Source: a virus
Virus record (IMG/VR): IMGVR_UViG_3300030090_003001
Coordinates: 1 to 57,770 of that record
Strand: one strand, 5' to 3'
DNA length: 57,770 nt
The notes beneath the pieces are model-generated. The model was not told the DNA's origin and searched no databases. It worked only from the letters and a program-made list of their open reading frames with translations. Position numbers and translations under genes: made by a program. How positions within the stretch are numbered: the first letter of the stretch is position 1; each line of letters begins with the position of its first letter. This document shows, one piece after another, positions 22,219 to 48,137 of the stretch.

Positions 22219-25133
22219 TGCCGAAACAAGTTCAAATATTAAAAGAGTTTGATGGCGGATTAAATTCATTCGCTGGGACTCGTGATATATCTGATAAGGA
22301 ATGCTCTTCTGTTAACGGATTTAAAGTTCGTAAAATAGGAGAGCTACTTCCCTTAGGTGGATTTATTGCAATAGGCGATACAATTATAGATGATATTGCT
22401 GACCAACTTAATGGTAGTGCTGACGTTAGATTTGATAATGGAGCTGCAGTATTTGAGTTTACTGCTGACCACACAAGAGACAATACAGAAGCTTCAGATA
22501 GATGGTTAATATTTGTAGATAAAAATGATGGTAAGGTTTTTATACACGCTCAATCTAGCTCCCCAAAAGCTTGGGAGTTTTTAGACCCAGATAATATATC
22601 TGAATTTAAAGGAATTGATGGGATTTTATGTAATTCTGGTAATATGACTGCTTACGATGGAAGAGAAGCATCCTATTATTTTGTAGATGGTAAATTAAGA
22701 ATATGTGACCCTAATTATAATAATGCTACTTATATTGGTGACCAGTCAAGTTCGCACGGTGCTTCATCTTTATGGTTTGGACACATTAATAAAGGATTCT
22801 TAGCTAATACAGTGCCAGTAAATCATTGGCATTGTTTGCCCGCAGCAGTTCCTAAGCCTATAGTAGGTTCTGGAAATGCCACTAATTTTTATGAAACACC
22901 TACCTTTGATACTGGAGCTGGTGGCCCAGATGTAAATCCGGGGCAATTTGGTTTAAATATTAATATACAAAGAGATAAAGGTGATGGCACTTTACAATTT
23001 CAAGGAAGAAAACTATATATAACATACACAATAGATGGTGTTCAAGAAACATTACCGGTTCCTCTGACAACTATAACAGATGCAAACCTACCATCAGCAC
23101 CTACTAATAGTAGTTTAGGGTATGAACAATTAACTTCACAAGCAGTCCCATTTGGTCAAGAAAATATACCTCTAGTTAATGATGTAAGAACTCTATCTGG
23201 CAGTGAAAAAGCGTGGGATACTGCCGGTACAGTGACAGTAACTGATGCAGTTGGTTTAACGCAAACTTTAATGTATACAGCTATAGTAGATGGAACATCT
23301 GGATTAAATAACAATGGTGCTTCAACATTAGCTGGAGTAACTGGTTGGGTAGATAACGGGGCTTGTTCTATAAATAATGTTGTAGATAGTATACAATTAA
23401 CTAATCCGGGTTCTGGGTATGGAACAACACCTCCAACGGTAACTATTAGTGGCGGCAGCCCAGATACAAATGCAACTGCAGTAGCAGTTTTAGATAATGG
23501 TGCTGTTGATTATATAACTGTAACAAACCCGGGTGATGGATTTGAAAGTGTTCCAACAGTTACTATATCTGGCGGTGCTACAGCTATTGCAACTATAACT
23601 GGAACATTAGCATCTGAAAATTATTGCGTACAAAGCGGTGGTACTTGGGATGAATCAAATTTAGCGTCTGGCAGCACAGTAACTTTTGATGCTCCCGGAG
23701 AAATAGAGCAAAAAGATGAAAATTTAGGAGTATCATTTACTTTAACAATTAAACCTCACGATTGGGTTGATGCGAATAATTGGGGTACAACATTATTAGA
23801 CCCTAAAGAAGGCGGAAACAGAATAACGCACGTTAATATATATTCTAATAAATATGAAGATGATTTAGCAACTATCCCACAATCTGAAGATATGGCTTTT
23901 ATGTGTTCTTTTGATTTAGAAAATGGATTTAAAAAACCAGATGGTACATTTACAGCTTGGGTAACAGATAGTTCATTAGCTTCTGGAACACATAATGACC
24001 AAAAATCAACATTTACATCTTTTATAGGTTCTTTGTTAGATGATAATTACCAAACAAGAACTGGAATGTTTCCAGACACTAACTCAACAGATATAAGATG
24101 GTTAGATGCTGTTGTAGTCAATAGAAGAGTTTATGCTGGTAATGTTATGTGTAAAGACGAAACTGGTAGCTATAAAGCATTTCCAGACAAAGTTTTAAAA
24201 TCCATTCCTAACTCATTTGACTCATTTCCATTGTATGATTCTTTAGATGTAGTAGTTGATGATGGTGATGAAATAACTGGTTTAGAAAGCTGGGGTGGTA
24301 AATTATTGCAATTTAAAAAACAAGCTATGTATTTAATAGATATAACTTCTGAACCAGAATTTTTAGCTGCTACTTTTAAATATCGAGGCATACCAACAAA
24401 AAATGCTAAAGCTAAGACAGATGAAGGAGTTGCATTCGCTAATGCTAATGGAGTATTTATGTTTAATGGAGAGTCAATGTCAAGACTAAGTAAAGGTAAA
24501 ATAGACACTGATTGGCAATCATTTTATGATGAAAATATTATTATGGGTTTTGAGCCTAAAAATCAATGCGTTATAATATCGAACAATACAGACACTTTTT
24601 TCGTATATGATATGATGACTAAGTCTTGGACTAAAGGTGATGGAAATAGGCATTTAAACGCTAATAAATCTAACTTTGTGATATATAATGACGAATTAGT
24701 ACAAGGTGGAGTGCAAAGTGATGGTTCAGTTAAATTTTACAAATATTCTGAAGACTACGCAACAACTATGGGTGCTAATGGCGTAACAGACCAATGGACA
24801 TCAAAAGAAATAGATTTTGGTAATCCTACTAACGATTCTTTTGTTTATAATATTAAACTAACATATAAAGCAACTGCTGAAACTGGAGTTGAGGTTTTAT
24901 TTGTATCTAATGATGGAACTGGCGAAACTACACATAATACAAGTATGTCAAATGGTACAGTATTGCCTACAGCTAGTAATGGTAATAATACAATAGAAAT
25001 AAAAGCAACTGATGGTGTTATAAAATGTAAAACATTTAAAATAATAATAAGGGAGGCAGCTAACGATACTATACACGACTCTTTTGTTATTACGGATATG
25101 GCAGTAATATATAGAGATAAAAGGATTAGGTAA
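22218..25133 (+). CDS. Tail tube or stabilisation protein (P22 gp10 / T7 gp12-like)
   Basis: 971 residues with the N-terminal signature FDGGLNSFAGTRDISDKE, which resembles the 'F-x-G-G-(I/L)-N' start of phage tail tube and stabilisation proteins. The remainder is rich in beta strands and Gly turns, consistent with a beta-propeller nozzle. A middle part (about 330-480) has two repeats (NPGSGYGTTPPTVTISGG and NPGDGFESVPTVTISGG). It follows an overlap with the small acidic protein and precedes the tail fibre, so it most likely forms the short tail tube. The fold is inferred, not seen. Confidence 0.7.
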   Translation: MPKQVQILKEFDGGLNSFAGTRDISDKECSSVNGFKVRKIGELLPLGGFIAIGDTIIDDIADQLNGSADVRFDNGAAVFEFTADHTRDNTEASDRWLIFVDKNDGKVFIHAQSSSPKAWEFLDPDNISEFKGIDGILCNSGNMTAYDGREASYYFVDGKLRICDPNYNNATYIGDQSSSHGASSLWFGHINKGFLANTVPVNHWHCLPAAVPKPIVGSGNATNFYETPTFDTGAGGPDVNPGQFGLNINIQRDKGDGTLQFQGRKLYITYTIDGVQETLPVPLTTITDANLPSAPTNSSLGYEQLTSQAVPFGQENIPLVNDVRTLSGSEKAWDTAGTVTVTDAVGLTQTLMYTAIVDGTSGLNNNGASTLAGVTGWVDNGACSINNVVDSIQLTNPGSGYGTTPPTVTISGGSPDTNATAVAVLDNGAVDYITVTNPGDGFESVPTVTISGGATAIATITGTLASENYCVQSGGTWDESNLASGSTVTFDAPGEIEQKDENLGVSFTLTIKPHDWVDANNWGTTLLDPKEGGNRITHVNIYSNKYEDDLATIPQSEDMAFMCSFDLENGFKKPDGTFTAWVTDSSLASGTHNDQKSTFTSFIGSLLDDNYQTRTGMFPDTNSTDIRWLDAVVVNRRVYAGNVMCKDETGSYKAFPDKVLKSIPNSFDSFPLYDSLDVVVDDGDEITGLESWGGKLLQFKKQAMYLIDITSEPEFLAATFKYRGIPTKNAKAKTDEGVAFANANGVFMFNGESMSRLSKGKIDTDWQSFYDENIIMGFEPKNQCVIISNNTDTFFVYDMMTKSWTKGDGNRHLNANKSNFVIYNDELVQGGVQSDGSVKFYKYSEDYATTMGANGVTDQWTSKEIDFGNPTNDSFVYNIKLTYKATAETGVEVLFVSNDGTGETTHNTSMSNGTVLPTASNGNNTIEIKATDGVIKCKTFKIIIREAANDTIHDSFVITDMAVIYRDKRIR

Positions 25134-28100
25134 TGCCAATATCACAACCTAAGATATTGTTTAAAGATGGTTTGCCTCAAGCCAATCAAGGTTATGAAGG
25201 GGAAATGAGAGTTGGTCGTGCAAATGGTCAACTTCATCTATTTGTAAGAACTAAAAACGAATGGCATTCTGTACCATTTACTAGCGAGTTAGGAAAAACA
25301 TTAGCTAGTGAAGTTACAGCTATAACGCTTAAAGAAACCCAAATAAATCAACAGACTATATCTAATATTATATGTGATACTATAAAGGTCAATAATAATT
25401 TACAAGATTCATCTGGAAATCCAATAGATTCAGCTACATTAGTAGCACATCCAAGTGACGCAACACAAGCTCATTCAGACTACCTTAAAAACACAACTGC
25501 AGAGCAATTAGACGGAGCCTTAATTATAACTGGAGGTTCTTCCTTAGCGGCTTCAGCAGAACATATCCTTAAATCAGTTAGCTCTATGTCAAGTACTAAT
25601 GTATTTTTTGTAGGCAATCCAGATTATAGTTCTGGAGGAGGCAATCCTTATGCTAAGAAAAGTGGTTTCTATGTATCTCCGGGTAATTTAGAAGGAATAT
25701 TCCATATAGGCACAACTAGTGGTCAAGACTTTGTTTTAGATGACTCCGGTTTATTAAAAGTTGAAGACATTACTGTAACTGATGATATTACATTAAGCGG
25801 CAATCTTATACACGGGTCTACAGATGTTTTATATTCACAAAATAACAGCATACGATTACTAGTAGATGAAATAAGTACAGATGGCGGCAACACTTGGGGG
25901 GAATTATATCCAGCACAACAACCAACAGATACTAATAGAATAGCATTTTCTGGGGGCAATCCAGCTACATCTGGCAACCCAATACAAGCAGATTTAGTAA
26001 GTAATTCAGTAACAAATACATATCTTTCAATGAATGTAGACCAAGATGTAGGGACAACTAATACACCGCAGTTTGAAAGATTAGGTATAGGTATTGCTGC
26101 TGACGGAACTATTGATGTTAACATAAGTTCAACAGACCCAAAAGTGCAGTTTAAAGATGAAACAAACAATAGTACTGCATCTATAGGTTTAACTTCTGGA
26201 ACATTAAATTTAAACACGCCTACAGCTATATCTACAACAGACAACAAATCAGTAGGTAGCGAAACATTTACACCGGGATATACTGGAACTGGTTACCAAA
26301 TTACACAGCTAGGTAGTGACAAATATAGAATTGAATGTGAAGAATTAACAGTTCGTGGACAAATGAATGTTTATGAAATGGTGATTAATCAAATAAGAGC
26401 TACTAATGGTTCTTTATTTGTTACCTCTTCAGCTGTAATAGATTCCATTGAAACAGTTAATACAGATTATGTAAAAATAACTTTTGATTCTAAAGATGCG
26501 GATTATCATCCATTTGCTGATGATGATATATGCATTTATCAGACTTGGGATACTAATGGAAACAATGCAGTTAGATATTTTATAAAAGTAACAGACCACG
26601 ATGTTTACGATAATAATCAACTTAAAGGTCAAGTATATAATACAACTGGCGACCTACAAACTGGAAATGATGTTGATACTGCTGTTGGTAACATAAGTGC
26701 TGGTAAAGCTTTATGTAGAATAGGTAATTCATCTGATAGCGCAAGACAAGGTGGAGTATACTTAACGTCAGATGATAGTGGCGCTCCATTTGTAAGTGTA
26801 TGGGATGATATAACAGCTCCAAACCAGTGGGGAACAGCCGATAAAGAAAAAGCAAGATTTGGTAATATAGGAGGCATATCATACAATGGAAGCTCTATAC
26901 CCGCTAACACTTATGGCTTATATGCTGAAAATGTACATTTAACGGGTAAAATTACAGCAACTGAGGGTTATATAGGAAGTGTAGCAGCTGGTTGGGCTAT
27001 AGACCAATATGGTATTATAAATTCAAGCGGAAATGCAGATAATAGAATTGCTATAGGAACTGGTAATCACAACAATTCAGATACTCCATTTTATGTAGAT
27101 GGTGCTGGTAAATTTAGTTTAAAAGACAAACTAGTGTGGGATGGAAGCAATTTATCAATAACTGGTTCAGTAACCTTACCTAATAATGAAGAAGTAGTTG
27201 GCCCCGGTATGACTTGGAGAGGTGCTTGGAATGAGAATACAACATATGCAAAATATGATGCGGTAAGTTATGATGATGGTAACGGAGTTAGGTCTTGGAT
27301 TTCAGAAGACAATAACAATACAAACAATATACCTAGCACTACATCTAATGACTGGGATTTATTAGCAGATGCTGGTACTGATGGAACAGATGGTCAAGAT
27401 GGAACGTCTGGTAATGATGGAAATCCCGGAGACTATATAAAATACGCTTATGCTACACAAGCAACTCAACCATCTGCCCCTACATTTGGTGGAACTTATG
27501 ATAGCCCTACTGTATCTGGTAGTGGTTGGTCTTTTAATATGTCTGCCCCGTCAAATGGTACTTTTGTATGGGTTTCTGAGACTACATATGATTACACAAG
27601 CGGAGCATCACCAACTACTGGTTCAACTCCTATACAGCTATCGGGTAATGATGGAACAGATGGACAAGACGGTACAGATGGCCAAGATGGCGCTGATGGT
27701 GCTAACGGTCAAGACGGAGCTGATGGAGCTAATGGTCAAGATGGTGCTGACGGACAAGATGGTGCTGATGGACAAGATGGAATTGATGGGCAAGATGGTG
27801 TAGACGGTGTTGATGGTAAGGATGGTGAAGCATTAACGTGGAGGTATAATAACTGGATTAACTTAGCAGCTTCTGCTGGTAGGTGGATGACACAAAATCA
27901 AGATGGCAATTATCATCAATTAGATGTAGGACAAAATGGTACTATAATAATTAACAGAGAAGATGCTGACGGGAATAGACACGATAATAGTTTAGCAGCT
28001 ATGAGAACTGGAGATAGATTTCAAATAACTTTGATAGAAGGTTCACAAAGTGGTTCTTTTGGTTTATATGAAGTAACCGGAGCATCAACTGCTGTAATGA

Positions 28101-31100
28101 TGCGATATGAAATACCAGTAAAAACTATTACAGCTAGTGGTAGTAATTGGGCATCAACAGATGATATGTTAATAAAAATTAATATAGGTAGCCAAGGAAC
28201 TGCTGGAATAGATGGAATAGACGGAACTCCCGGAGCAGATGGGCAAGATGGCCAAGATGGAGCAGATGGTGCAGATGGTGCGCCGGGCGCAGATGGGCAA
28301 GATGGACAAGACGGAGCGCCGGGTACAGACGGACAAGACGGAACAGATGGTATTGACGGACAAGATGGCGCTGATGGTGCGGATGGAGCTGACGGAGCTG
28401 ATGCTCCAACAATTATTTGGAAAGATAAATATAATGACAGTACAGCTGGTCGATTTGGAATAGGATGCTTAGATGCAAGTAATAACGTAATTACTAACTT
28501 TGCTAATATATCTGGCACTGGTTCTGTAATGGTAAACACTATAGATGCTGATGGTGTAGACCACGAATTATATTTAAGCACACTTATTACTAATCATAGA
28601 GGTATAATAAGAAAACAAACATCTTTTGTAGAGTTTAAACTAACATCAGATGTAATTTTAACTGGAACTGGTTCTGATAGAAAAGCACAATTTTCTGTGT
28701 CTTATGAAAATGGTGCTAGTACTATTGCTGCAGATGAAATAGCTACAATAAATTGCACAATATCTGGAAAAGATGGCATTGATGGACAAGATGGGACAGA
28801 TGGAGTTGATGGGGTTGATGGTGTAGATGGGCAAGATGGAACAGATGGTATAGATGGAACGGATGGGCAAAACGGAGCAGATGGTACTAATGGTGCTGAT
28901 GGAGCAGATGCACAATTTTTTTCTGTGTCATACGAAGCAGTTACAGTAAGCTTTAACAATTCTTCTGGAAGTCCAGTTTTACAACCATCTGGTAGCGCAC
29001 AAGACATATCATTAACATCAAGAAGACAAAACATTACAAGCAATGTTACTCACACTATATACTCAGATTCAAGTTATAGCAATATACACTCTAGTGTTGT
29101 TTTTGGTAATGGTTCAGCTACTCAGACTAGTCTTGATGTATTTATAGATGTTTCTTCTTGGACGCCAAGTAGTGTAGGGGAAACAATTTATATTAAATCA
29201 GTTTGTGGTTCATTTGAAGATAGACAATCTATAACTGCTTTATATAGCGGTGCAGATGGAAATGATGGCGTTGATGGACAAGATGGTATAGATGGTGAAC
29301 ACGGTCAAGACGGTACAGATGGTGCAGACGGAGAAGACGGGGCATCATTAATACTAACAAATGAAAATCACTCAGAAATAGCTGATGGTGCTACTAATAA
29401 TTTAAGTTTTGCTGCTAAACAAATAGGAGAGGCTACATTATATTTTGGAGCAACTCCTTATACTCAAACAACTTTTGGTGACAGTAACTGGACTAACGCA
29501 ACAATTACAATTTTGGGAACAACTTATTCTGCCAGAACAACAAGTCAAAACGGATTATCTGTATATGTAACAACTAATGACTCTACGACTGCAAAAATAA
29601 TAATATTTGCTAGCAATTGGAATACTGCTGCTGAAACTTTTGACATATCAGCTTACAAACCATCTGGAGAAGAATACAAAAAAACATTAACCATAGTAAG
29701 ACAAGTATCTGGTGAAGATGGTAATGATGGAAATGATGGTAGTGATGGCCAATATACAAAATATGCTTATAAAAATGCTACAACACAACCAAGTACTCCT
29801 ACTTTTTTAGGAACGTATAGCAACCCATCGCCACCAACTGGCTGGTCGTTTACACCAACAGCTCCTAGCCCTAATGAATATGTATGGGTTTCACAAGCTG
29901 TATATTTGCCAGCTGGGCCACAAACAGCATCAGACCCTATTCAATTTACACCAGACGATGTAGCGCAAGCTGGATTAAATGGTTTGTTGACTTGGCAAAG
30001 TATGTTAACTGAGCCGGGGTCATTTGTTGTTAATAACATCCACACAAATTTTACACCTAATGGAAACATATATGCTACTAACAACATAAACTCGCTATTT
30101 GGGCAAGAGCATTTAAACATAAGTTGGGCAACGGGTGTTCAGCAAGGCAATATGATTCTTTTTTCAAAAGACAGCAGTACTTATAATGAAATGACATTAG
30201 GTGGTGATAATCAAAATATGGCAAGCAATTCTCCATATATATTTTCACTATATTATAAAAGCATTTCAGCATTATGGACTAATAGCAAAATAAAATTAGG
30301 ATTAAAAACCGCAACCGGCGCACATTGGGTTTCTGATTCAATAACTATATTAGGTGCAAATACTAATTGGACAAGAATATCTGGAGTTATAGATGTTCCA
30401 GTTTCTGGTTCAGAACAATTTGTTCCATTTATATGGATTGACGAAGGTGACTCTGAAGACAATAACTCTTTTATTGGAACAGCTTTTGCAATAGACGGGT
30501 TAATGCTTGAAAGAAAAATTGGTGATAACAATGAACCAAGTCCATTTCATACTGGTATATCTTCAATGGGAGGAGACGCTACATTAGATTCTTTAGTAGA
30601 TGCTGAACCACCATCGGGAGGTGGTTTTCATTTTGACTCAACACATTTAGGTTTTTATAAAGATAGTAGTTGGACAACCTATATGGACAATCAAGGTGAT
30701 TTCTTTTTAAAGGGACAAACTAATGCTGATGTTGATACTGCTCTTTCATTTGATGGTTCAACTGGTGACCTTACAGTATCTGGTAAATTAAAGTTAGGTG
30801 ATACTTTATATCAAAACGTGAGTTTAACAGTTGGCTCAAACAATACTATACCTAATTCAACACAATGCACAAAATTATCAATAGATGCAAAAAATTATTT
30901 AGTAAGTGATAATACGCTTGTTTTTGACACTTATTCAAACAGCAATTTAAGTGATGGTTTAGTTTTAATAGTTTTAGATGGACAAACAGATGAATTAGAA
31001 ATCAGACACAAAATGATATATGATACAACGTCTGCTAATAATGGTGTTACAATACAACAATCTTCACAAGCTTTAATAGACCATATAGATGGAACAACCA

Positions 31101-33703
31101 ATTTATCAGATGGAGCGCAATTAAGAAATGCAGATATAGTTATTGTTTTAGGTTATCGTGAATGGGACACATTGTTTAATAATGGGCAGACATATGTTAA
31201 CTATGGAATTGATGAAGCATTATATTCTATCGGCGCAGCAGCTGCAGATATATATCCACACCATCTAAATGGCTTTAATAATAATGATGAAGTTTTATTA
31301 ATAGTAGGTAAAAAAGGATTAGGCAAAAATAATGGTTATTCTATAAGAAAATCATCAACACATACAGAACCAGTTGATTTTCAGTTTTCTGTATATGATG
31401 GTACTATTAGTGTGGGATTATCTTCTAGCGGTACAGTTATTACGGGTAATCAAATACAAAGTGGAAAAATAGTTTCTAATAATGTAGATGAAACAGTTTC
31501 TAATACACATTATATATCACAAGGAACTAAAATTGATTTAGACGCTGGTACAATACAAACTAAAAACTTTGCTATTGATGCAAATGGAAATGCTAGGTTT
31601 AAAGGAGAAATAGAAGCTCTTAGTGGTAATATAGGCGGAGCATTGACGTTAGGTGCCGGAAATATGAAAATAGGTGGCTGGAGTGATAATTCAGTAGCCT
31701 ATATTGGTATAAGTGTAGATAACAATAATTACTGGTATGATTCTGGAGATTTTATAGTAGGTAATGGTACTAGTTATATTGGATACAATTCTTCATTAGA
31801 TGAAGTAACAGTAAAAGCAGATAAAATTGATATAGGTAGCACGACAGTTACTAACGAAGACACATTAATAGATGCTATTAATAACGCTGGTACAAACACT
31901 AGAATATCTGGAGACCACATAGAAATTAATGGAAATACAGTATTTACAAGTGGTTTTCAAACTGGTGATAAAATTATATTTTTATGGAACGGTGGAGGTG
32001 TAATACCAGACAACCCATACTATGGGTATTCTGAACCTAATTTTGATTTTCAGCACGGAAGTGAAGCGGCTACTGTTTATTACACTGATGCTAATGCAGA
32101 AATGGGATACAACAATAGTTCTGGAGGTTTTGTTAGTAGGGCTTTAAGAGCTGGAACTGCATCTGGGGATTCAACAATAGGTTGGACATTTGGGGATGAA
32201 TCGAATAACCAATATTCAGATACACATTCAAACAATGGGATGTATCCTTACGACCCAACAAAATTATACAAAATGACAATAAGAGTAAGAAGGTATGCTG
32301 GCTCATCTTCAGAAGCTTTAACATATGCTGGTGTTGCTATGTATGCATCAAATGGTTCTCAATTAGATAGGGATGGAGATTATCAAACAAATGGAAATGG
32401 AGATTTTAATCACGCTCCAGTTGTGTTAGATGGGCAGATAGTTGGCTCTCAATTTGTTACTTATACTGGTTATTTTAGTGGAATTACTGGAACAAATAAT
32501 GGTAGTGACATAAAACAATCTAATACACAGACGCAACCATCTCCTTTAGCGCAAGGATGCACACAATTTAAACCATACATAATTTGCAATTTTGGCTCAG
32601 TTAGCGCAAGAACATCAATTGATTATATATCTATAATTGAGATGGGTGGCGGAGGAAACACTGTAATTGATGGAGATAGAATAGTAACTGGTACAATTGG
32701 TGCTGAAAGAATAGATGTAAATTCGATATTTGCTGTTGATGCTAACATTACTAATGTTTTAACAATGGGTTCTGGCAATGAACAAAAAGTTATAATAGGT
32801 AATGATTTAAGTATAGCTGCTGGCGATATGGACAATGAAGATATTGTTATAGGTAAAATAGCAGCTGGAAACAGCTCTTGGACATCTTCAAATGCTAATA
32901 GTGGATTAACATACAGTGTAAATGGCCCAGCTATTATTATACCAAAAGGCGAAGGTGATTTTACTTTTATGGGAACTCAAGGCCTAATGAAAAATGCAAA
33001 TCAATATATGGCTTGTTTTATGCAAACCCCAGTAGTAGGATGGAAAACAAATGTTACTCAACACGATACTTCCGTATTTAATATGTCATCTTTAGGTTGG
33101 CCAAACTTATATGCACCAATTTGTTCTTTAGATGTACCTTTTAGCTATATGCCTAATACAATGCCCACAACTACTGAGTTTGATATTGTTTGGACTTTTA
33201 TGCCTACTACTATTTGGTACTCTTTTGGAAACGCTGATGAGGCGATAGTTAATGTTAATATGCCACAAACAACTTCTTTGTCAGAAGGTAACTTTTTTGA
33301 TGGTACACAATGTTTTATACATAATGGAAGCACTTGGGATTTAGGTAACAGTGTAAATACGCAAACTGAAATTTACGATACTAATAAAATTGTTGACATA
33401 TGGACTACCGCACAAGAAAGCACTACTACAATGTTGTCGCACGGGTTTATTCCAGCGGGAACAAACATTACTAATTTATACTTTTTGTCTGCAAGGTATG
33501 TTATAAATAATAATGATGACGCAGATTATTCTGGCAACTACAGTACAGAAGCAGAAGCATTTTGGAAAGCTGGATATAATGGTGGCATAGGAGGGCTGCT
33601 ATCATTTTATATAGCTGACCAACAAGTCCCAGATTATGGTACCAACTTAGCTGGTGGTTCGCCATCTATAGGAAATGCTAGCAGTGGAAATCAAGGTAAT
33701 TAA
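25133..33703 (+). CDS. Giant tail fibre with collagen-like spacers, 2856 residues
   Basis: Very long receptor-binding fibre, probably trimeric. The N-terminal part (about 1-700) is an attachment and shaft region, including LTVRGQMNVYEMVINQIRA (about 405-425). Between about 748 and 1540 globular beta modules alternate with at least five collagen-type Gly-x-y stretches: about 748-762, 838-899, 1021-1091, 1212-1260, 1373-1403, and a short one at about 1526-1539. The commonest triplets are GQD, GAD, GTD and GID. A module starting KYAYATQATQPSAPTFGG is repeated as KYAYKNATTQPSTPTFLG. The remaining 1,300 residues are modular and beta-rich. No intramolecular chaperone or enzyme domain is recognised. 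Confidence 0.9.
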   Translation: MPISQPKILFKDGLPQANQGYEGEMRVGRANGQLHLFVRTKNEWHSVPFTSELGKTLASEVTAITLKETQINQQTISNIICDTIKVNNNLQDSSGNPIDSATLVAHPSDATQAHSDYLKNTTAEQLDGALIITGGSSLAASAEHILKSVSSMSSTNVFFVGNPDYSSGGGNPYAKKSGFYVSPGNLEGIFHIGTTSGQDFVLDDSGLLKVEDITVTDDITLSGNLIHGSTDVLYSQNNSIRLLVDEISTDGGNTWGELYPAQQPTDTNRIAFSGGNPATSGNPIQADLVSNSVTNTYLSMNVDQDVGTTNTPQFERLGIGIAADGTIDVNISSTDPKVQFKDETNNSTASIGLTSGTLNLNTPTAISTTDNKSVGSETFTPGYTGTGYQITQLGSDKYRIECEELTVRGQMNVYEMVINQIRATNGSLFVTSSAVIDSIETVNTDYVKITFDSKDADYHPFADDDICIYQTWDTNGNNAVRYFIKVTDHDVYDNNQLKGQVYNTTGDLQTGNDVDTAVGNISAGKALCRIGNSSDSARQGGVYLTSDDSGAPFVSVWDDITAPNQWGTADKEKARFGNIGGISYNGSSIPANTYGLYAENVHLTGKITATEGYIGSVAAGWAIDQYGIINSSGNADNRIAIGTGNHNNSDTPFYVDGAGKFSLKDKLVWDGSNLSITGSVTLPNNEEVVGPGMTWRGAWNENTTYAKYDAVSYDDGNGVRSWISEDNNNTNNIPSTTSNDWDLLADAGTDGTDGQDGTSGNDGNPGDYIKYAYATQATQPSAPTFGGTYDSPTVSGSGWSFNMSAPSNGTFVWVSETTYDYTSGASPTTGSTPIQLSGNDGTDGQDGTDGQDGADGANGQDGADGANGQDGADGQDGADGQDGIDGQDGVDGVDGKDGEALTWRYNNWINLAASAGRWMTQNQDGNYHQLDVGQNGTIIINREDADGNRHDNSLAAMRTGDRFQITLIEGSQSGSFGLYEVTGASTAVMMRYEIPVKTITASGSNWASTDDMLIKINIGSQGTAGIDGIDGTPGADGQDGQDGADGADGAPGADGQDGQDGAPGTDGQDGTDGIDGQDGADGADGADGADAPTIIWKDKYNDSTAGRFGIGCLDASNNVITNFANISGTGSVMVNTIDADGVDHELYLSTLITNHRGIIRKQTSFVEFKLTSDVILTGTGSDRKAQFSVSYENGASTIAADEIATINCTISGKDGIDGQDGTDGVDGVDGVDGQDGTDGIDGTDGQNGADGTNGADGADAQFFSVSYEAVTVSFNNSSGSPVLQPSGSAQDISLTSRRQNITSNVTHTIYSDSSYSNIHSSVVFGNGSATQTSLDVFIDVSSWTPSSVGETIYIKSVCGSFEDRQSITALYSGADGNDGVDGQDGIDGEHGQDGTDGADGEDGASLILTNENHSEIADGATNNLSFAAKQIGEATLYFGATPYTQTTFGDSNWTNATITILGTTYSARTTSQNGLSVYVTTNDSTTAKIIIFASNWNTAAETFDISAYKPSGEEYKKTLTIVRQVSGEDGNDGNDGSDGQYTKYAYKNATTQPSTPTFLGTYSNPSPPTGWSFTPTAPSPNEYVWVSQAVYLPAGPQTASDPIQFTPDDVAQAGLNGLLTWQSMLTEPGSFVVNNIHTNFTPNGNIYATNNINSLFGQEHLNISWATGVQQGNMILFSKDSSTYNEMTLGGDNQNMASNSPYIFSLYYKSISALWTNSKIKLGLKTATGAHWVSDSITILGANTNWTRISGVIDVPVSGSEQFVPFIWIDEGDSEDNNSFIGTAFAIDGLMLERKIGDNNEPSPFHTGISSMGGDATLDSLVDAEPPSGGGFHFDSTHLGFYKDSSWTTYMDNQGDFFLKGQTNADVDTALSFDGSTGDLTVSGKLKLGDTLYQNVSLTVGSNNTIPNSTQCTKLSIDAKNYLVSDNTLVFDTYSNSNLSDGLVLIVLDGQTDELEIRHKMIYDTTSANNGVTIQQSSQALIDHIDGTTNLSDGAQLRNADIVIVLGYREWDTLFNNGQTYVNYGIDEALYSIGAAAADIYPHHLNGFNNNDEVLLIVGKKGLGKNNGYSIRKSSTHTEPVDFQFSVYDGTISVGLSSSGTVITGNQIQSGKIVSNNVDETVSNTHYISQGTKIDLDAGTIQTKNFAIDANGNARFKGEIEALSGNIGGALTLGAGNMKIGGWSDNSVAYIGISVDNNNYWYDSGDFIVGNGTSYIGYNSSLDEVTVKADKIDIGSTTVTNEDTLIDAINNAGTNTRISGDHIEINGNTVFTSGFQTGDKIIFLWNGGGVIPDNPYYGYSEPNFDFQHGSEAATVYYTDANAEMGYNNSSGGFVSRALRAGTASGDSTIGWTFGDESNNQYSDTHSNNGMYPYDPTKLYKMTIRVRRYAGSSSEALTYAGVAMYASNGSQLDRDGDYQTNGNGDFNHAPVVLDGQIVGSQFVTYTGYFSGITGTNNGSDIKQSNTQTQPSPLAQGCTQFKPYIICNFGSVSARTSIDYISIIEMGGGGNTVIDGDRIVTGTIGAERIDVNSIFAVDANITNVLTMGSGNEQKVIIGNDLSIAAGDMDNEDIVIGKIAAGNSSWTSSNANSGLTYSVNGPAIIIPKGEGDFTFMGTQGLMKNANQYMACFMQTPVVGWKTNVTQHDTSVFNMSSLGWPNLYAPICSLDVPFSYMPNTMPTTTEFDIVWTFMPTTIWYSFGNADEAIVNVNMPQTTSLSEGNFFDGTQCFIHNGSTWDLGNSVNTQTEIYDTNKIVDIWTTAQESTTTMLSHGFIPAGTNITNLYFLSARYVINNNDDADYSGNYSTEAEAFWKAGYNGGIGGLLSFYIADQQVPDYGTNLAGGSPSIGNASSGNQGN

Positions 33704-39101: not shown

Positions 39102-42100
39102 ATGGCAGATATTTGGGATGAATTAGGACAAATCGAAAATCAAGACGAGCTTGACACACGAGCTGCGCAGATTAAAAAAGACCAAGAAATCCAACAAAGA
39201 AACATAAGAAATATGAACGCTAAACAAGTTATTGAACAGCGTGAAAATATGCTTAAAGCCAAAGAAGCACAAAAAGAGCTTGATGGTGATGTTTGGGAGG
39301 TTTTACCAGAGCAGTCAAAAATTGAGCAAATGCGTAAAGATAGAGCTGAAAGTGAAGCTCAGAAAAACTTTATGACAGATATGGCTGTAGATATGGCTTT
39401 TAATGAGCCGGGAGCTATCGATTTAGACAAAGTTATGAGTCTTACCGGTGTTCCTATTACTTCGAAAAGAATGATGGATATAGGGCGTCCTAAGAGTGCA
39501 ACATTTGGGATAATGTCAGACACTGATATAGATGAAGATAGGTTTAACTCTCAACAAAGAAATGAAATCTATGAGAATCTATATTATAATCGTATAAACC
39601 AAGAAGGTTCCCAAGATTCTACAATTCCTTTATATACTGGATATGCAGCTGATGGAAGCACTATAGAAGAGTCTCAAGCTAGAGATAGAATGAAAGCTGT
39701 TCAAGAAGCAGATAAGCAAGAAGACAACCTTTTTAAATATGTAGATTTTGCATCACAAACAGAAAGAGAAATACCATACTTTGAATTATTCAAAGAGTTT
39801 CCACAAATATACAACTTACCGTACATAAAACAATTTGAAACACAAGATACAAATAATGGGACTATTTCGCCAAGCGTAGCTAAATTTTTAGATGGAAGTG
39901 GTATGGTTGATTTGTCTGATACTACACTTTCAGATTTTATGGAAAACAATCCATACTTAGAAAATGAGACTATAGAAGGCTATAGAAGTAGGATGAAAGA
40001 AAAATATAACCTTAGTGGCAATAAAGTTTTAAAAGACAATCCTTATTATGGATGGAAACCAGAAGATGTGTTTCAAGATTTTGCCCAATGGCTTACAACT
40101 ACATCTCCAGATTCTAAAAATTATGGTGATATGAGCCAAGATGATATAACAAATGATATGTATACCCGAGCTGAAATGCCACCAGAAGGCCAAAGAGACC
40201 AATTCTTTTTAGAGAATTATAGATTAGGTGGGCAAGCGTTTAGATTAGACGACAAGAGAGATATAATAGCTAATTACGGTAAAATTGCATACGAAGAATG
40301 GGCAGCAATGGTTGAAGATGAAGACCTTGCTTATGAAGATTTTAATCCTTATAGACAAAAACTATCTGCTGGTGACAATTGGTATCCATATATGACTGAA
40401 GACCAGCATACATTGTGGGAAGGTGTTAAAAAAGGGTTTGGTCACAAATATGGAACAGCAGATGATAGGATGTTAAATTCAGTGCATAGATTAGTTGGCC
40501 TTGGAACTGAAAAAGCTGGGCAATTAGTAGGTGTAATGAATAGTTGGAGCGATTATTTAGAAAAAGCATTTGAAGGTGAAATTAGGCAAGAAGACTTTTT
40601 AGGAGCATCTGCAGAATGGCTTCAAAAAACTGGATTTAATATTAAAACTGGACAAACAATGTTACCAGAAGGTGAAACATTTGAGGGTTACAATGTGTTA
40701 AATGACGGACAACAATCTGGTTTTAAAAACTTTGTAGATTCAATTCCCGGATTAGCTATAGACTTATTTTTATTAAAAGGAATGGGTTCAAAGGTTGGTG
40801 CAGCCTCATTACCTATTTGGGTTGCAACACACAGAGGTGCTGAAGCAATTGAAAAAGGTAGAAATGAAATTTTAGATGAAAATACTGGCGAAGTTATAGG
40901 CCAATCTTTATCAACAGATTCTGGTGATATATTACTATCTACGGTAAAAGGTGGCGCTGAAGGTTATACTTACCACTTAATATTTAAAGGCACTAGTATG
41001 ATACAAAGTGGTGCTGGAAGAGCAATGACTGGCGGAACAATATTTGGTGGCCCAGCTATGTACAAAGCTTTAAAAGATGAGTATGATAATGACCCAACTA
41101 CTAAAGGAGACTTTGGTGAAGCTTATTCTAATTTTCTATTTGGTGGGGTTATGTCATATTTTGCTAGAGGTAATAAATATACAGAGCTAGCGCCTTGGCA
41201 AGCTAAACTAATGAGGGCATTTTTAAAACCTCAAGTTGGAAGAGGTAGATTTAGAATACCCTTATCTGAATCAGAAAAATTAGCAATAAATGCATATACA
41301 AATGGAACTGTAAAAGAAGTTCCGGGCTATGGTAAAGTTAAAGTTTTTTATGATAAAAAATCTGGACAAGCTGCTTTTCAAAGTAAAGATGGAGATTGGT
41401 TTCTTTTTACTAAAGGCGGTAAACCAGTTAAAACTTCAGAGCCAGAATTTGGCGAATATTTTAATAGGTCTATATTAACAGAAAAAGGATTTCAAAAATG
41501 GATGGAATCTTTATCTAAAAAAGAAGTTGCTAATATAATTAACGGTAAAGTCCCGGGTATACCAGTTACATTAAAAGATAAAATTGTAATGAAATTGATG
41601 CAAAGATTTAATATGCCTAAGAATTTTGAAATGGTTAAATGGGCTGCTGGAAAAGGAAGAGGAGGAGTAAAAGCTACTAGTGTTCCATATAAAGCTCAAG
41701 CACCAAGTGGTTCTAATATAGTCCCAACTGGTACAAACCAAAAAGTAACAAGCAGCACTACAACAACAGCTTCTCCAGCTGCAGCAGCTGCATCAAGCAA
41801 TATTTCTACCAAGAAAAACACCTCCTCCACACAAACAACATCGTCCTTAGGTGATACTAATAAGACTCCAGATATACAACGCATAACATCATCCGTAATT
41901 TCCCTTCAAAAGACGCCTAGTCAAAAAGTTTATGATGATACTGTTACTCAAATCAACGAAGTAAAATCTGAACTAGATGCTGGTTATATCTTTAAAAATG
42001 GAAAAATGGTACCAATTTCTAAGGGCGATGCTGTAAAAGTAAGACAAAGATTAATAGAGTTAGAAGCAGAAGCTAAAAAAGCTGTAACTGCAGCCAATAA

Positions 42101-45100
42101 ACGTAAAACACCTTTAAAAACACCAGAACAAATAAAATTTGATAATAGTGTTGTTAACCTTAAAGCACCTATTAATCCTAAAACAAACAAGCCTTATATA
42201 GCTTATAACAAACCTATTAAAAATGTTGATGCAGCAATTAAAAGATACGAAGCTGTACAAAAAGATAGGGTAGCCTTACAAGCAAAAAGGGATGGCTTAC
42301 CTAAAACAACTAAAACTTATACAAATTTAGACAACAAAATAACGCAGCTTAATAAATATAGTGATGGGCTTAAAAATGTTATAAATGAAGGAAACCCTTC
42401 GTATTTTAAAAATAAAGCTGCAGCATTAGCTCCAAAACCTACAACTACAGTTGCTCCAAAAGCAGCGCAAACTAAAGGAACACCTAGTAGGGTTGACACC
42501 GAGTTGCCAAATTTAATAAACAAAAGATATGGGAAAAACACTAAGGCTTTAAATGAAAGATTAGAAAGAGATTACGGTGTTGATGATGTTAAAGCACTAA
42601 CAAAAGAACAAAAGACTGATTTACACTCTAATTTAACTGTAGAAGAAATAACTAGAGAAATGGGTGGATTAGAAGCTGGAATGATGGGTATTACACCTCA
42701 AAATATGAAGTTATTAAGAAGAGGTATAATAGATGCTGGTAAATTCACTTATGACAATTTACCCAAATCTATGCAAAAACAAGCCGACAAACTAGGAGTA
42801 ACTACTGAAAACTTTAAACAACAATTTCGTGACTGGACTAAAGACCCTAATAAAGCACCACAAAAAACTAAAGCTTTTTTTAAGAAAGTATGGAAACAAT
42901 TCAAGAATTGGTGGAAAAAAGGGAAAGAGGGATTAAAGGAATATTTAAAAAATCCTAAAATTGGAATGAGTGTAGAAATGGTTGGAAAAGATGGAAAACC
43001 ATTATCTATTAAAGACCAAGCAAAAGCAATGAGAGGTGGAGATAAAAGAGGTGTAGTTAAATCTAAAGCACCTTTTGTTAAAACCAGAACAGCTGAAGGT
43101 ATGAACAAAAGAATACCGCAATCAAAAAGAGCTACTGGTATAACAACACCAAACAAAACTGAAACTGGTGAATCATTTGCAATAACAAAATCTTCTGGCA
43201 GAGGCAGAAAACAAACAATACCACAGCCAGAATTAGATAAAATGCTTGTAGAATCTTTAGCGGAAGCAAACACAAAAGGTATACCATCATCTATTAAAGC
43301 TCCTACAACTAAAGAAGTTGAAACATTTACAGCTGGTAAAAATGAAGATAGGTTTTGGTATGAGCTTTCTACAGATGCTTTTAATAATAAAGTTAGGCTT
43401 GACAATAAAAGCGACAAAAGTAAATTGCACGGTCTAGTTTCTGCAACTAGCGTTAATGAAAAACCTTTTCCAAATTTAGTTAAGGCAATAAGTACCTTAT
43501 CTGAGCATATGCAAGGCTCTCCTATAAACACATCATTAATAGACCCTAAACCTATAACAGATGTATTAAGAGGTGAATCTTTTGAAACACCAAAAATAGG
43601 AAACTTTCAACAAACATTTGATTATATAGCTGGTATAACTGGTCAAAAACCTCTTACTGTAAATGATAGACAAGTAGCAGCAAGGTATGGAATTAAACCA
43701 TCTGACTTAGCTACAAACGCATCTTTATATGAAGCAATATCTTTAAATGAAATTAAAATGGCTGAACGTCTAAATAAAGACTTAAAACCCGGAGAAGAAC
43801 CTTGGACTGAATATCAACTGCAAGCAGCAAGTTGGACAAACACAAGATATGATAAAGGTGTTTCACAAATTGGAGATAATTATGCTCAAGGAATGGAAAC
43901 TTTATTTAACGTATTAGAAAGTAATGGAATTAAGCTACCTAAAGACCCTAGTACTGGACAAAGATATTTAGATACAGAAACTTTACTAAACCCTAATGTA
44001 CCTAAAATTCTGAGTCCAGCTGGGTACAAATATAAAAAAGCTTTAAAAGGTAATATAGAATTTGCAACAAACAATACTATAGAGGGCAAATTGGCTCAAG
44101 ATAATTTTAGTGAAATTGCTAAAGCTTTAGGATTTACAATTGATATAAACCAAGCTAAACAATTAACAAAGATGCAAGAAGCTTATATTGCTACATATAA
44201 AAGAGCTTTAAGAGCTTTAGGGCAACAACCTAAATACAAACCATCTGTTTTAAATAGAATGATAGATGCTATAGTTGGAAAAAGATTTAAACTTTCAAGA
44301 GTTACATATGATACTGGTGGTTGGGCTGGAGTAGTTAACCAAAACATTACATTCCCTTTAGCTGAGTCACAATCAACTGGTAGAGCTTCATTGGAATTAA
44401 ATGACATACAAACAGAAGGATTGCTGTCAATATTAGGAAAATTTGCTGGACAAGATGCTGGTGGAGCTTCTAGATTTAAAAGACTTATAGGCCCAGATGC
44501 TTGGAATAAAGCAGAGTCTTTTCAAATGTTTACACCAGAAAAAGGAATATCTATACAAAAAGAACAAATGCTTTTAGGTGCTATCAAATCTAAAACTGGT
44601 CAAAGTTTAGGGTTTAATAAACAAGAGCTACCAAATGGAACTTTGTTTTCTTTCCATCCAGACGGAAAACTTCCATCCCCAGACAAATTAGAGGCTGCCG
44701 GACTACAAATTTTTGACGAAGGAGTTAACTTAATACCAACTACATATAAAAGTGTATTAGCTGTTGATAAAGAATACAATACAAATATAAGGAGGATGAA
44801 AAATGCCATCGCAGAAGAACTTGCCATCGGAGTTAGAGACAAACTCATCGATGGAACAACAAAACCCCCAAGAGTTGGACTCATCAGTACAGCAATCAAA
44901 GGGAAAAAACCAATCGAAAACTACATCAAAGACATCAAGGCCAGACCCAGAAAGCTTATTGAAGGAGCTAGGTCTAGATACAAATCCAGAATGGACATTC
45001 TCGATGATGCAATCAAAGATTACAAAGTAATTACTAAACAATTAGATAAAGAGTTAGGCGTTTTAAATAAACAAATGGAAGGCCCTTTATCTAAAATAAA

Positions 45101-48100
45101 TGGAAGAAAACTTAATAAGTACGAGGAAATACTTTCTGATGGGTTTGAAGCTGGATTTATGGGTTTCACACCGCAGAATATGAAACTATTAAAACAAGCT
45201 CTTATAGACACATCAACTTTCCTATATAGAGATTTACCTAAGCATTTACAGAAACTTGGCAAAACACTTGGTATAGGAGCTAAAAACTTTAAAAAAGCAT
45301 TAGATAAATTTATGCATTATTTTGGGCCAGTTACGGTAGGAAAGAGAGTCATACCAAAAGCATACAATAAGCTTAAGAATTTTTGGAAGCAAGTTTATAG
45401 TTCTATGAAAACTTGGTGGGGAAGCAACAAAGATAGAGTTGTGGGTGATATACAAAGAGTTAAAGATGCTAGAAGAAAGAATTTATCACAAAAAGATTTA
45501 GCTTATAAAACTCAAAAACAATTAGCTAGAGCAAAAGTTATTGAGGGAAGTTTAATAAAGTCTGGAAGAACTACAGCTAAACAATTAGCAGTACTTAAGA
45601 AAGAATTGCTAGGCGTAAGCAGTTTAGGAGACTTAAACAAAAAAGGTAAACCTACAGACCCAGAGGCAGATAACAAAATTGCTGGATATATAAGAATGTT
45701 AAGAAGATTTGAAAATAGAAATAGGGGTGTTGATATGTCTAAGCTAATTCCAGCGGCAGACCAATACCCAACTCCTACAACTAGAAGCCCTAAAGAACAT
45801 CTGCAAATAGAAATGGGCAATTTAGCTGTAAGAAGGACTGTTCTTAACCACAGAACTTTTGAGTTAACAGACAAAGGCTTAATTGCAGACGCAGACCAAA
45901 GAGCGCCTCTTGGTAAGATAAGACAAGGTGCTTATGCTAGATTTGTTAGAAATATGGGAAATACAGAAGATTTTGCAGATTTAATACAGCAAAAAACTGG
46001 CGCTCCAGTATATGATGCTTATGAAGATGTTAGAATAGCAGTTGGTAACACTGAAGGTTATATAGACCAACATATGCGTCCTTTAATAGAAATAATAAAA
46101 AGAGCTACTGGACAAATAGATTTAGATAAAGCTATGCCATTATCATCAAGAGTTAAAATACATAGAGCTGGTAAAGGTGACCCAGATGCTTTAGCTGACT
46201 TAACGCAACTAGAACAAGATTTATTAAATCATATACAAGGTTATTATAATGACCCAGTAACACAAAAGATTTTTAAATTAAATCGTTTTATGAATTGGTA
46301 TAACAAGTCTGGAGAATCAAACAAGGGTTTGCCGGGCGTTGATAAAAAAGATTTATTAAACCTTAAGGCAATATATGAGGCACAAGGAAATGCTGCATTA
46401 ATAGCTGCATTAGATGATGTTAAAGGCTTGGTTATAGAAAAAAATTATATGCCAGATTTTTCTGAAGCTATAGACTATAACAATTCATCACAAATGTACA
46501 ATCTTAATATTGGCAAACAAACTTTAAAACCAAAAGATAGTAATGCAGATATGAATAAAGATGCTATAAAGGCTTTTATTAGAAAGGTAAGAGCAGATGC
46601 CAAAATATTTTATATGGATGAACCTATTACAAGGTTAGCTAATATAGTAAACACTGGATTACCAGCTGAAGTTTCAAACGATATGCTGCTATCAATAGAT
46701 TCTATGAACAGACCATTAGATACTAGCTCAATGGCAGAAATGAGTTCTAAGTGGGTTGGCCACGTTATGAAAGCTGCTTTAACTCTTCCATCTAAATGGG
46801 GTAGAAACCTTTTTCAGAGACTAACATTATTACCTTACACAAGTGGTGTTAATATGCCTAAAATGCTAGGCTCTATGATGAGAAATACATTCTTTCCTAA
46901 AAAAATAGGTGGAATACCTATGCCAAAAGGTGGAAAAATAGATATTTATAGACCGGGTCGTGGAAGCTTAAATGTAACTAAATCCTCTGATTATATGAAT
47001 GCTCCATCTTGGAAAACTAATCATTTTAATTCAATGGTATCAGCAAATACTAGCTTGGCAGATGATTTTTTAATGTCGACTCATATGCCTATTATAGACA
47101 AGCTTCCTTTTGGTATGAATAAAGCTTTTAGAGGTCTTATAGATACTTATAAATGGACTGATGCTAGTAATAGGTGGGCTATATTTAATCCTATGGTTGA
47201 TGATATATTAAAAACATTAGAAACCGCATCTAAAACTGGCAAAGATTTTAATTCTATAAAAAACAAATTGTATTGGAATAAAGTAGGTGACTATGAAAGT
47301 TTAAAAGATATTTTAAGACCAGAAATACAAATGGCTCTAAATGGCGATGTTGCAGCACAAAGATATGTTGCTTTAAGAATAGCAGAACATATGAGTGGGC
47401 CAGCTGTTAACTGGAGATATAATGCAATGGATAGGTCAATACACGAACAATCTGGAACATTTGGTAGAGGAGTGTTTAGAGCAACAACATACCCAGTTAG
47501 ATTAATAGCACAAGTTGCTAAAGATGCTTGGAAAGTTTATAGAGGTGCTTATAGAGGTAATATGAGCGAAATGTGGGGTGGTCTAAAAGGTGTTATGGGA
47601 AGACTGGCTATTATGTGGGGAATAGAAAAAACATTAAACTATATATATGGCTCCAAACCAAGTGGTGGCGGATGGGGCTATGATTTTATTAGTGATGTTC
47701 TAGGATTTGAGGTCGGAGGACTTGCATTTGCTGGTGCAGATTGGCTGTATGGAACGAAGCCAGCTGTCGGTAAACTGGGAGAAGCTTGGTCTGCATATAT
47801 AGATGGTGATGAAAAATATGGAGATGAGCTTATGGCTAGGGCAGCACAAATGTTAGCAGCTCACACTGATGGAGTATCAAAACAAACAGTTGTATTTTAT
47901 AGGTTTATAACTTGGCAAATGGAAAATGCCTTAGGCGTTAAAAAAGTCTCTCCATTAAGAGACCTTGTAGATGTTTGGCTTAATGAATATGACCCAGAAG
48001 AAATAGATAGGACTACAACACAAATGGTTCAACACGGTTTTACTGGTGCTGGATATGACCCAGAGATTGAGGATGATGGCAAAAGATGGATAGATGAATT

Positions 48101-48137
48101 TGAAAAGATGCCCCCATTACAATTAAACCCTTACTAA
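39102..48137 (+). CDS. Giant internal virion protein (gp16-like / polyvalent-type), 3011 residues
   Basis: Likely ejected with the DNA. The N-terminal 600 residues are acidic and helical. A Ser/Thr/Ala linker lies at about 880-940. A module at about 1180-1290 with AGMMGITPQNMKLL is repeated at about 2008-2115 with AGFMGFTPQNMKLL, an internal duplication. A large middle region (about 1390-1900, with DRQVAARYG and LQAASW) and the C-terminal membrane-active-looking region (about 2450-2950) resemble large polyvalent proteins of other phages. No classical lytic transglycosylase motif is recognised. It contains an overprinted reading frame at 44803-45030. Confidence 0.8.
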   Translation: MADIWDELGQIENQDELDTRAAQIKKDQEIQQRNIRNMNAKQVIEQRENMLKAKEAQKELDGDVWEVLPEQSKIEQMRKDRAESEAQKNFMTDMAVDMAFNEPGAIDLDKVMSLTGVPITSKRMMDIGRPKSATFGIMSDTDIDEDRFNSQQRNEIYENLYYNRINQEGSQDSTIPLYTGYAADGSTIEESQARDRMKAVQEADKQEDNLFKYVDFASQTEREIPYFELFKEFPQIYNLPYIKQFETQDTNNGTISPSVAKFLDGSGMVDLSDTTLSDFMENNPYLENETIEGYRSRMKEKYNLSGNKVLKDNPYYGWKPEDVFQDFAQWLTTTSPDSKNYGDMSQDDITNDMYTRAEMPPEGQRDQFFLENYRLGGQAFRLDDKRDIIANYGKIAYEEWAAMVEDEDLAYEDFNPYRQKLSAGDNWYPYMTEDQHTLWEGVKKGFGHKYGTADDRMLNSVHRLVGLGTEKAGQLVGVMNSWSDYLEKAFEGEIRQEDFLGASAEWLQKTGFNIKTGQTMLPEGETFEGYNVLNDGQQSGFKNFVDSIPGLAIDLFLLKGMGSKVGAASLPIWVATHRGAEAIEKGRNEILDENTGEVIGQSLSTDSGDILLSTVKGGAEGYTYHLIFKGTSMIQSGAGRAMTGGTIFGGPAMYKALKDEYDNDPTTKGDFGEAYSNFLFGGVMSYFARGNKYTELAPWQAKLMRAFLKPQVGRGRFRIPLSESEKLAINAYTNGTVKEVPGYGKVKVFYDKKSGQAAFQSKDGDWFLFTKGGKPVKTSEPEFGEYFNRSILTEKGFQKWMESLSKKEVANIINGKVPGIPVTLKDKIVMKLMQRFNMPKNFEMVKWAAGKGRGGVKATSVPYKAQAPSGSNIVPTGTNQKVTSSTTTTASPAAAAASSNISTKKNTSSTQTTSSLGDTNKTPDIQRITSSVISLQKTPSQKVYDDTVTQINEVKSELDAGYIFKNGKMVPISKGDAVKVRQRLIELEAEAKKAVTAANKRKTPLKTPEQIKFDNSVVNLKAPINPKTNKPYIAYNKPIKNVDAAIKRYEAVQKDRVALQAKRDGLPKTTKTYTNLDNKITQLNKYSDGLKNVINEGNPSYFKNKAAALAPKPTTTVAPKAAQTKGTPSRVDTELPNLINKRYGKNTKALNERLERDYGVDDVKALTKEQKTDLHSNLTVEEITREMGGLEAGMMGITPQNMKLLRRGIIDAGKFTYDNLPKSMQKQADKLGVTTENFKQQFRDWTKDPNKAPQKTKAFFKKVWKQFKNWWKKGKEGLKEYLKNPKIGMSVEMVGKDGKPLSIKDQAKAMRGGDKRGVVKSKAPFVKTRTAEGMNKRIPQSKRATGITTPNKTETGESFAITKSSGRGRKQTIPQPELDKMLVESLAEANTKGIPSSIKAPTTKEVETFTAGKNEDRFWYELSTDAFNNKVRLDNKSDKSKLHGLVSATSVNEKPFPNLVKAISTLSEHMQGSPINTSLIDPKPITDVLRGESFETPKIGNFQQTFDYIAGITGQKPLTVNDRQVAARYGIKPSDLATNASLYEAISLNEIKMAERLNKDLKPGEEPWTEYQLQAASWTNTRYDKGVSQIGDNYAQGMETLFNVLESNGIKLPKDPSTGQRYLDTETLLNPNVPKILSPAGYKYKKALKGNIEFATNNTIEGKLAQDNFSEIAKALGFTIDINQAKQLTKMQEAYIATYKRALRALGQQPKYKPSVLNRMIDAIVGKRFKLSRVTYDTGGWAGVVNQNITFPLAESQSTGRASLELNDIQTEGLLSILGKFAGQDAGGASRFKRLIGPDAWNKAESFQMFTPEKGISIQKEQMLLGAIKSKTGQSLGFNKQELPNGTLFSFHPDGKLPSPDKLEAAGLQIFDEGVNLIPTTYKSVLAVDKEYNTNIRRMKNAIAEELAIGVRDKLIDGTTKPPRVGLISTAIKGKKPIENYIKDIKARPRKLIEGARSRYKSRMDILDDAIKDYKVITKQLDKELGVLNKQMEGPLSKINGRKLNKYEEILSDGFEAGFMGFTPQNMKLLKQALIDTSTFLYRDLPKHLQKLGKTLGIGAKNFKKALDKFMHYFGPVTVGKRVIPKAYNKLKNFWKQVYSSMKTWWGSNKDRVVGDIQRVKDARRKNLSQKDLAYKTQKQLARAKVIEGSLIKSGRTTAKQLAVLKKELLGVSSLGDLNKKGKPTDPEADNKIAGYIRMLRRFENRNRGVDMSKLIPAADQYPTPTTRSPKEHLQIEMGNLAVRRTVLNHRTFELTDKGLIADADQRAPLGKIRQGAYARFVRNMGNTEDFADLIQQKTGAPVYDAYEDVRIAVGNTEGYIDQHMRPLIEIIKRATGQIDLDKAMPLSSRVKIHRAGKGDPDALADLTQLEQDLLNHIQGYYNDPVTQKIFKLNRFMNWYNKSGESNKGLPGVDKKDLLNLKAIYEAQGNAALIAALDDVKGLVIEKNYMPDFSEAIDYNNSSQMYNLNIGKQTLKPKDSNADMNKDAIKAFIRKVRADAKIFYMDEPITRLANIVNTGLPAEVSNDMLLSIDSMNRPLDTSSMAEMSSKWVGHVMKAALTLPSKWGRNLFQRLTLLPYTSGVNMPKMLGSMMRNTFFPKKIGGIPMPKGGKIDIYRPGRGSLNVTKSSDYMNAPSWKTNHFNSMVSANTSLADDFLMSTHMPIIDKLPFGMNKAFRGLIDTYKWTDASNRWAIFNPMVDDILKTLETASKTGKDFNSIKNKLYWNKVGDYESLKDILRPEIQMALNGDVAAQRYVALRIAEHMSGPAVNWRYNAMDRSIHEQSGTFGRGVFRATTYPVRLIAQVAKDAWKVYRGAYRGNMSEMWGGLKGVMGRLAIMWGIEKTLNYIYGSKPSGGGWGYDFISDVLGFEVGGLAFAGADWLYGTKPAVGKLGEAWSAYIDGDEKYGDELMARAAQMLAAHTDGVSKQTVVFYRFITWQMENALGVKKVSPLRDLVDVWLNEYDPEEIDRTTTQMVQHGFTGAGYDPEIEDDGKRWIDEFEKMPPLQLNPY
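44803..45030 (+). CDS. Overprinted small gene inside the giant protein gene (+1 frame), 75 residues
   Basis: The ATG at 44803 has a perfect ribosome-binding site, AAGGAGG, seven bases upstream (44789-44795). The frame stays open for 75 codons and ends in TAA at 45028-45030. Exactly over this interval the host frame switches from its usual ATA/ATT and TTA codons to ATC, CTC and GCC, and reverts right after the stop. The small frame itself has ordinary codons (TCA, CAA, AAA, TTA). The product is hydrophilic, rich in Ser, Gln, Lys and Glu, and ends near NPEWTFSMMQSKITK. No family is recognised. Confidence 0.75.
   Translation: MPSQKNLPSELETNSSMEQQNPQELDSSVQQSKGKNQSKTTSKTSRPDPESLLKELGLDTNPEWTFSMMQSKITK

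Follow-up and report, generated by a model that had tools for sequence, protein, structure and literature searches.

The window, i.e. the whole stretch of 57,770 nucleotides analysed here, is an uncultured genome that resembles those of short-tailed phages, with a P22-type portal, an SU10-type capsid protein and a TerL. The final large gene of its plus-strand block (39102-48137, plus strand) occupies a late-block position and encodes a giant protein of 3,011 amino acids, for which searches of Pfam, PHROGs and the PDB returned zero relevant matches. The term "ejection protein", by which an earlier note on this DNA had referred to the product, was a guess from size and position, and no family match to giant podoviral ejection proteins of the T7 gp16 or N4 vRNAP type was obtained in these three resources. 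A fold search with the C-terminal domain of the protein was dropped, since the model was too poor (pLDDT 48). The giant protein carries a repeated domain at residues ~1188-1271 and ~2013-2110; the first copy is encoded at 42663-42914 (plus strand, identified by hmmsearch), and the second, which begins with GFEAGFMGFTPQNMKLL, at 45138-45431 (plus strand, identified by hmmsearch and BLAST).

Nested in the giant gene, at 44803-45030 on the plus strand, is an open reading frame (ORF) of 75 codons in the +1 frame, which runs from an ATG to a TAA (45028-45030) and ends about 37 codons upstream of the second domain copy. The ATG is preceded at a spacing of 7 nt by a perfect Shine-Dalgarno (SD) sequence, AAGGAGG (44789-44795, plus strand), so that the coordinates, length, frame and spacing given in the earlier note are all exact. 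This is the sole AAGGAGG on the plus strand; on the minus strand the motif occurs three times, two of which (55859 and 49745) are located just 5' of ORF starts, and the SD matches of most genes in this genome are recognisable but shorter. The predicted product of 75 amino acids (8.4 kDa, pI 5.3) is hydrophilic (gravy −1.29) and is devoid of cysteine and histidine. Its structural model is mostly unstructured apart from two short helices at residues 49-56 and 62-70 (mean pLDDT 63), which suggests that most of the protein is disordered, possibly with short helices towards the C terminus. Searches for relatives of the peptide in viral_contigs, phages, Pfam and PHROGs found none. An antisense ORF covering the same interval (44757-45041) was rejected as a candidate; it starts with a TTG without a visible SD sequence and is interrupted by a stop in the distant relative L087 described below.

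The synonymous codon use of the giant gene changes sharply at this place. Among 12,800 spans scored across the main genes, the lowest synonymous codon z in the genome belongs to the 76-codon span starting at 44790 (z = −7.3), and the maximum-scoring segment of the anomaly covers 44790-45002 on the plus strand, i.e. codons 1897-1967 of the giant gene (permutation P < 0.001), compared with codons 1901-1976 for the inner ORF. The shift in host codon use that had been described for this interval is thus real and the strongest of the genome, but the statement that it coincides exactly with the ORF was too generous, since it begins 4 codons 5' of the inner ATG and stops about 9 codons before the inner stop. 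Within the interval, isoleucine of the host frame is encoded by nine ATC, two ATT and no ATA codons, while ATC accounts for 5% genome-wide. The runner-up among the codon anomalies of the giant gene, at 41808-41915 (codons 903-938), encodes a Ser/Thr/Ala-rich, low-complexity stretch.

The length of the inner ORF by itself is marginal (P ~0.05 in synonymous shuffles). An exact calculation, in which the host protein and the codon use are given, yields a probability of 1.8e-8 to 2.6e-8 that the +1 frame is open. When all 257 alternative-frame stretches that are open for at least 40 codons across 25 genes were ranked in this way, the inner ORF (2.6e-8) came second after a stretch in TerL (2.6e-9), and the third reached 2e-5. 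The fourth lowest value of the genome (P(open|aa) 3.4e-5) belongs to a +2 open stretch of 53 codons at about 32207-32370 in the gene at 25133-33703. Given an open +1 frame, a host-codon z of −1.7 ± 1.0 is expected at 44803-45030; the observed value is −8.65. The codon shift is therefore extreme even conditional on openness, which indicates more than the avoidance of stop codons. Under the same condition, the inner peptide contains 26 serine, threonine and proline residues where 6.2 are expected and 15 hydrophobic residues where 37.5 are expected. The silent sites of the host are set such that the inner frame encodes Ser, Thr and Pro in place of hydrophobic residues.

We also scored the amino-acid make-up of both frames against real and shadow frames of one gene. 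The inner peptide reached +22 bits (real windows, 28 ± 8; +1 shadows, −28 ± 9) and the host segment +27 bits (real, 33 ± 8; shadow, −40 ± 15), and hence both frames look like protein in their composition. The codons of the inner frame had previously been described as normal for the phage. This did not hold, as the inner-frame synonymous codon z of −5.2 lies inside the range of ordinary +1 shadows, and it is instead the amino-acid composition that is protein-like. Atypical synonymous codons in the inner frame are expected under overprinting, because the third positions of the inner frame are the first positions of the host frame.

Searches by sequence found no close relatives of the giant region. 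Via TerL and the repeated domain we identified distant giant proteins in L086, L087 and L088 (26-27% identity) as well as in L094. Each of the four genes carries a +1 ATG ORF of 38-63 codons 5' of the repeated domain, preceded by an SD match of at least 5 bases, and in all five giant genes, including that of the window, the SD-led ORF sits 50-135 codons 5' of the domain. In shuffles, an SD-led ORF in this upstream position, which was set post hoc, was recovered in 0 of 500 cases for the window and with P values of 0.012, 0.004, 0.018 and 0.004 for the four relatives; by chance, 0.05-0.37 such ORFs are expected per gene. The giant proteins of six still more distant relatives measure 2,887-3,785 amino acids. 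Only one of these six giant genes contained an SD-led ORF, which looks like a shadow, and SD-led out-of-frame ORFs were rare in the six genomes. The control ORFs L086:1348 and G016:2321 look like shadows (LLR −28). The former, an SD-led +1 ORF of 69 codons (1348-1416 of the L086 giant gene), lies inside the first domain copy and is probably a chance ORF.

The counterpart in L087, a phage with about 27% identity to the window in its giant protein, appears to be a good one. The top codon anomaly in this entire gene of 2,139 codons covers codons 1025-1086 (P 0.001), and the SD-led ORF, located 5' of the same domain, covers codons 1024-1087; its inner composition is protein-like as well. Since the open frame alone is not rare in L087 (P 0.02), the weight rests on the codon shift. 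The L086 counterpart is weaker and might be called fair, with a conditional P of 0.01 and a composition midway between real and shadow frames. The inner peptides of L086 and L087 start alike (MKQTTNKNSSNL and MTQTTKQKSGNL, respectively), and their alignment score of 51 was matched by none of 2,000 shuffles, with 30 as the best +1 control. Over the first 12 codons, 7 of 12 residues are identical in the inner frame compared with 3 of 12 in the host frame, and the host codons differ 8, 2 and 2 times at positions 1, 2 and 3, as opposed to 52, 47 and 66% in the rest of the pair. This excess at position 1 is what selection acting on the inner frame would produce. L088 has the C-terminal stretch GKL.K.SS.K.YQ.S in common with the inner peptide of L087 (shuffle P 0.016) but is ambiguous in other respects; host-frame homology between the two giant proteins extends as far as the L087 ORF and continues inside it. 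The ORF of L094 is weak and looks like chance. Across the five genes the inner ORFs vary in length (38-75 aa) and pI (5.3-11.5), and the comparison of the window peptide with that of L086 gave a shuffle P of 0.33. Because the window peptide does not convincingly resemble the others, the five ORFs may belong to one family or may instead reflect repeated overprinting of this site.

The distant genes also bear on the proposal that the inner gene arose together with the internal duplication of the giant protein. The repeated domain is present in two copies in L086 and in one copy in L087, and in L088 only its later part is recognisable. As L087 has the ORF with a single domain copy, and no SD-led +1 ORF of at least 35 codons lies upstream of the first copy in the window, a joint origin is unsupported.

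Could the interval instead be a recombinant patch from a phage with C-ending codons, in which the SD sequence and the +1 ORF are mere by-products of fewer ATA and TTA codons? It is the silent sites that shift (third-position C increases from 0.08 to 0.33), with host positions 1 and 2 much as elsewhere, and fewer ATA and TTA codons would open the +1 frame automatically. However, such a patch leaves unpredicted the sole AAGGAGG at a good spacing, the agreement between anomaly and ORF borders in two genes that have diverged very far and the protein-like inner composition. Moreover, it is mainly Ile and Leu codons that shift (nine ATC, three CTC), whereas the Asp codons are still mixed. We thus regard a recombinant patch as unlikely. 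The coinciding borders, together with the failure of the host-frame interval of the window to align with that of the relatives, would also fit the insertion of a ready-made small gene cassette including its SD sequence, comparable to the hidden endonuclease of ShiLan, through which the giant frame accidentally reads. In that case, however, the host segment should score like a read-through shadow, at about −40 bits, and not at the +27 bits of genuine protein composition; protein-like composition in both frames counts against a cassette of this kind. An HNH motif is impossible in a peptide without histidine, and the host-frame homology of L087 and L088 extends into the ORF itself, which leaves an inserted cassette very improbable. 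Finally, the ORF might be a chance one without a product, and the silent-site shift a signal in RNA or DNA, a view to which the second silent-site anomaly of the same genome, in TerL, lends some plausibility. Yet the RNA around the inner SD sequence and start shows no unusual structure (z 0.37), an excess of promoters or terminators was not found, the +2 frame is closed, as is the antisense frame in L087, and a chance ORF does not account for an openness probability of 2.6e-8. We therefore give this last explanation hardly any credence.

Our preferred reading is that 44803-45030 is a real overlapping gene, born de novo by overprinting and translated by internal initiation into a small hydrophilic late protein, to which we assign a probability of about 0.86. 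The low openness probability, the silent-site shift, the composition of the two frames and the counterpart in L087, with the weaker one in L086, all support the earlier proposal that an overprinted gene, equipped with an SD sequence of its own, lies here. As a distant phage carries a counterpart with the same signature in the corresponding position, the nested gene is very probably real and so far unannotated. According to this model, the inner ORF would have overprinted, de novo, a part of the older giant late gene that is poorly conserved. Ribosomes would enter the late mRNA at the internal site AAGGAGG-N7-ATG and translate 75 codons of the +1 frame, independently of the ribosomes making the giant protein. 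We infer this translation from the start codon, the SD sequence, the open frame, the dual-frame constraint and the distant counterpart, all of which can be read from the sequence. Both proteins would come from one mRNA, which makes a joint role plausible, and we tentatively suggest that the inner product could act with the giant protein, e.g. as an assembly factor or chaperone; a role in host takeover or anti-defence is only slightly less probable.

Several known systems resemble this arrangement in part. Rz1, a secreted lipoprotein, has a signal peptide and a lipobox cysteine. Like the inner ORF, Rz1 in Rz, or its equivalent in the T7 spanin pair, is a small gene that lies entirely, and out of frame, within a late gene of a dsDNA phage (T7 record), but unlike Rz1 the inner peptide lacks cysteine and is hydrophilic throughout, and so it does not qualify as an o-spanin of the Rz1 type. 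In T7, the annotated genes 19.2 and 19.3 are likewise +1 ORFs (57-85 aa) within gene 19, a conserved late gene, although their host is TerL rather than a giant protein and they are annotated as hypothetical. In ShiLan, a homing insertion with a hidden HNH endonuclease contains an out-of-frame ORF while the host phage gene stays open (PMC11855218). An out-of-frame ORF within an open host gene is the common feature; in contrast to ShiLan, the inner peptide has neither an HNH motif nor a Pfam match, and its host frame resembles a genuine protein. The olg1/olg2 pair of phage Fc02 also consists of two phage ORFs that overlap in alternate frames, but it belongs to the lysogeny region and functions in superinfection exclusion (PMC9936078).

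The stretch with the lowest openness probability in the genome is a +1 ORF of 106 amino acids at 5461-5781 (plus strand) in TerL (5016-6602). Across 61 distinct homologues, codons 181-240 retain 3-4% of the expected +1 stops and codons 151-195 about a quarter, and the other regions mostly come close to the expected number; no comparable depletion occurs in the +2 frame, and synonymous identity rises up to 1.44 times expectation. The +1 ORF stops at codon 248 in 37 of the 61 homologues, among which neither an SD sequence nor a uniform start was found, and its inner composition is intermediate between real and shadow frames. The anomaly is a strong one, and 5461-5781 is probably a second, putative overlapping gene. 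T7 19.2 was dismissed as its positional counterpart, as the ORF (codons 149-254 of TerL in the window) corresponds to T7 codons 131-249 in a low-identity alignment and 19.2 lies at about 216-301. In some relatives, namely G021 (L110-L112; codon 306), L041, L043, L044 and L046, TerL carries a different +1 open stretch of 145-169 codons in its C-terminal half; the host codon z of this stretch in G021 is −9.

Gene finders generally miss nested genes, and to our knowledge few nested genes of tailed phages have evolutionary backing. The tests of openness, silent sites and two-frame composition do not require close relatives; applied to the same genome, they led to the second candidate in TerL. A nested gene of conserved position in a giant late protein would be a concrete example, open to testing, of how a gene is born de novo. 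With a gene at a fixed place in the giant late protein and a conserved +1 ORF in TerL, neither of which has matches in family libraries, there is about an even chance that this lineage of uncultured podoviruses uses overprinting repeatedly.
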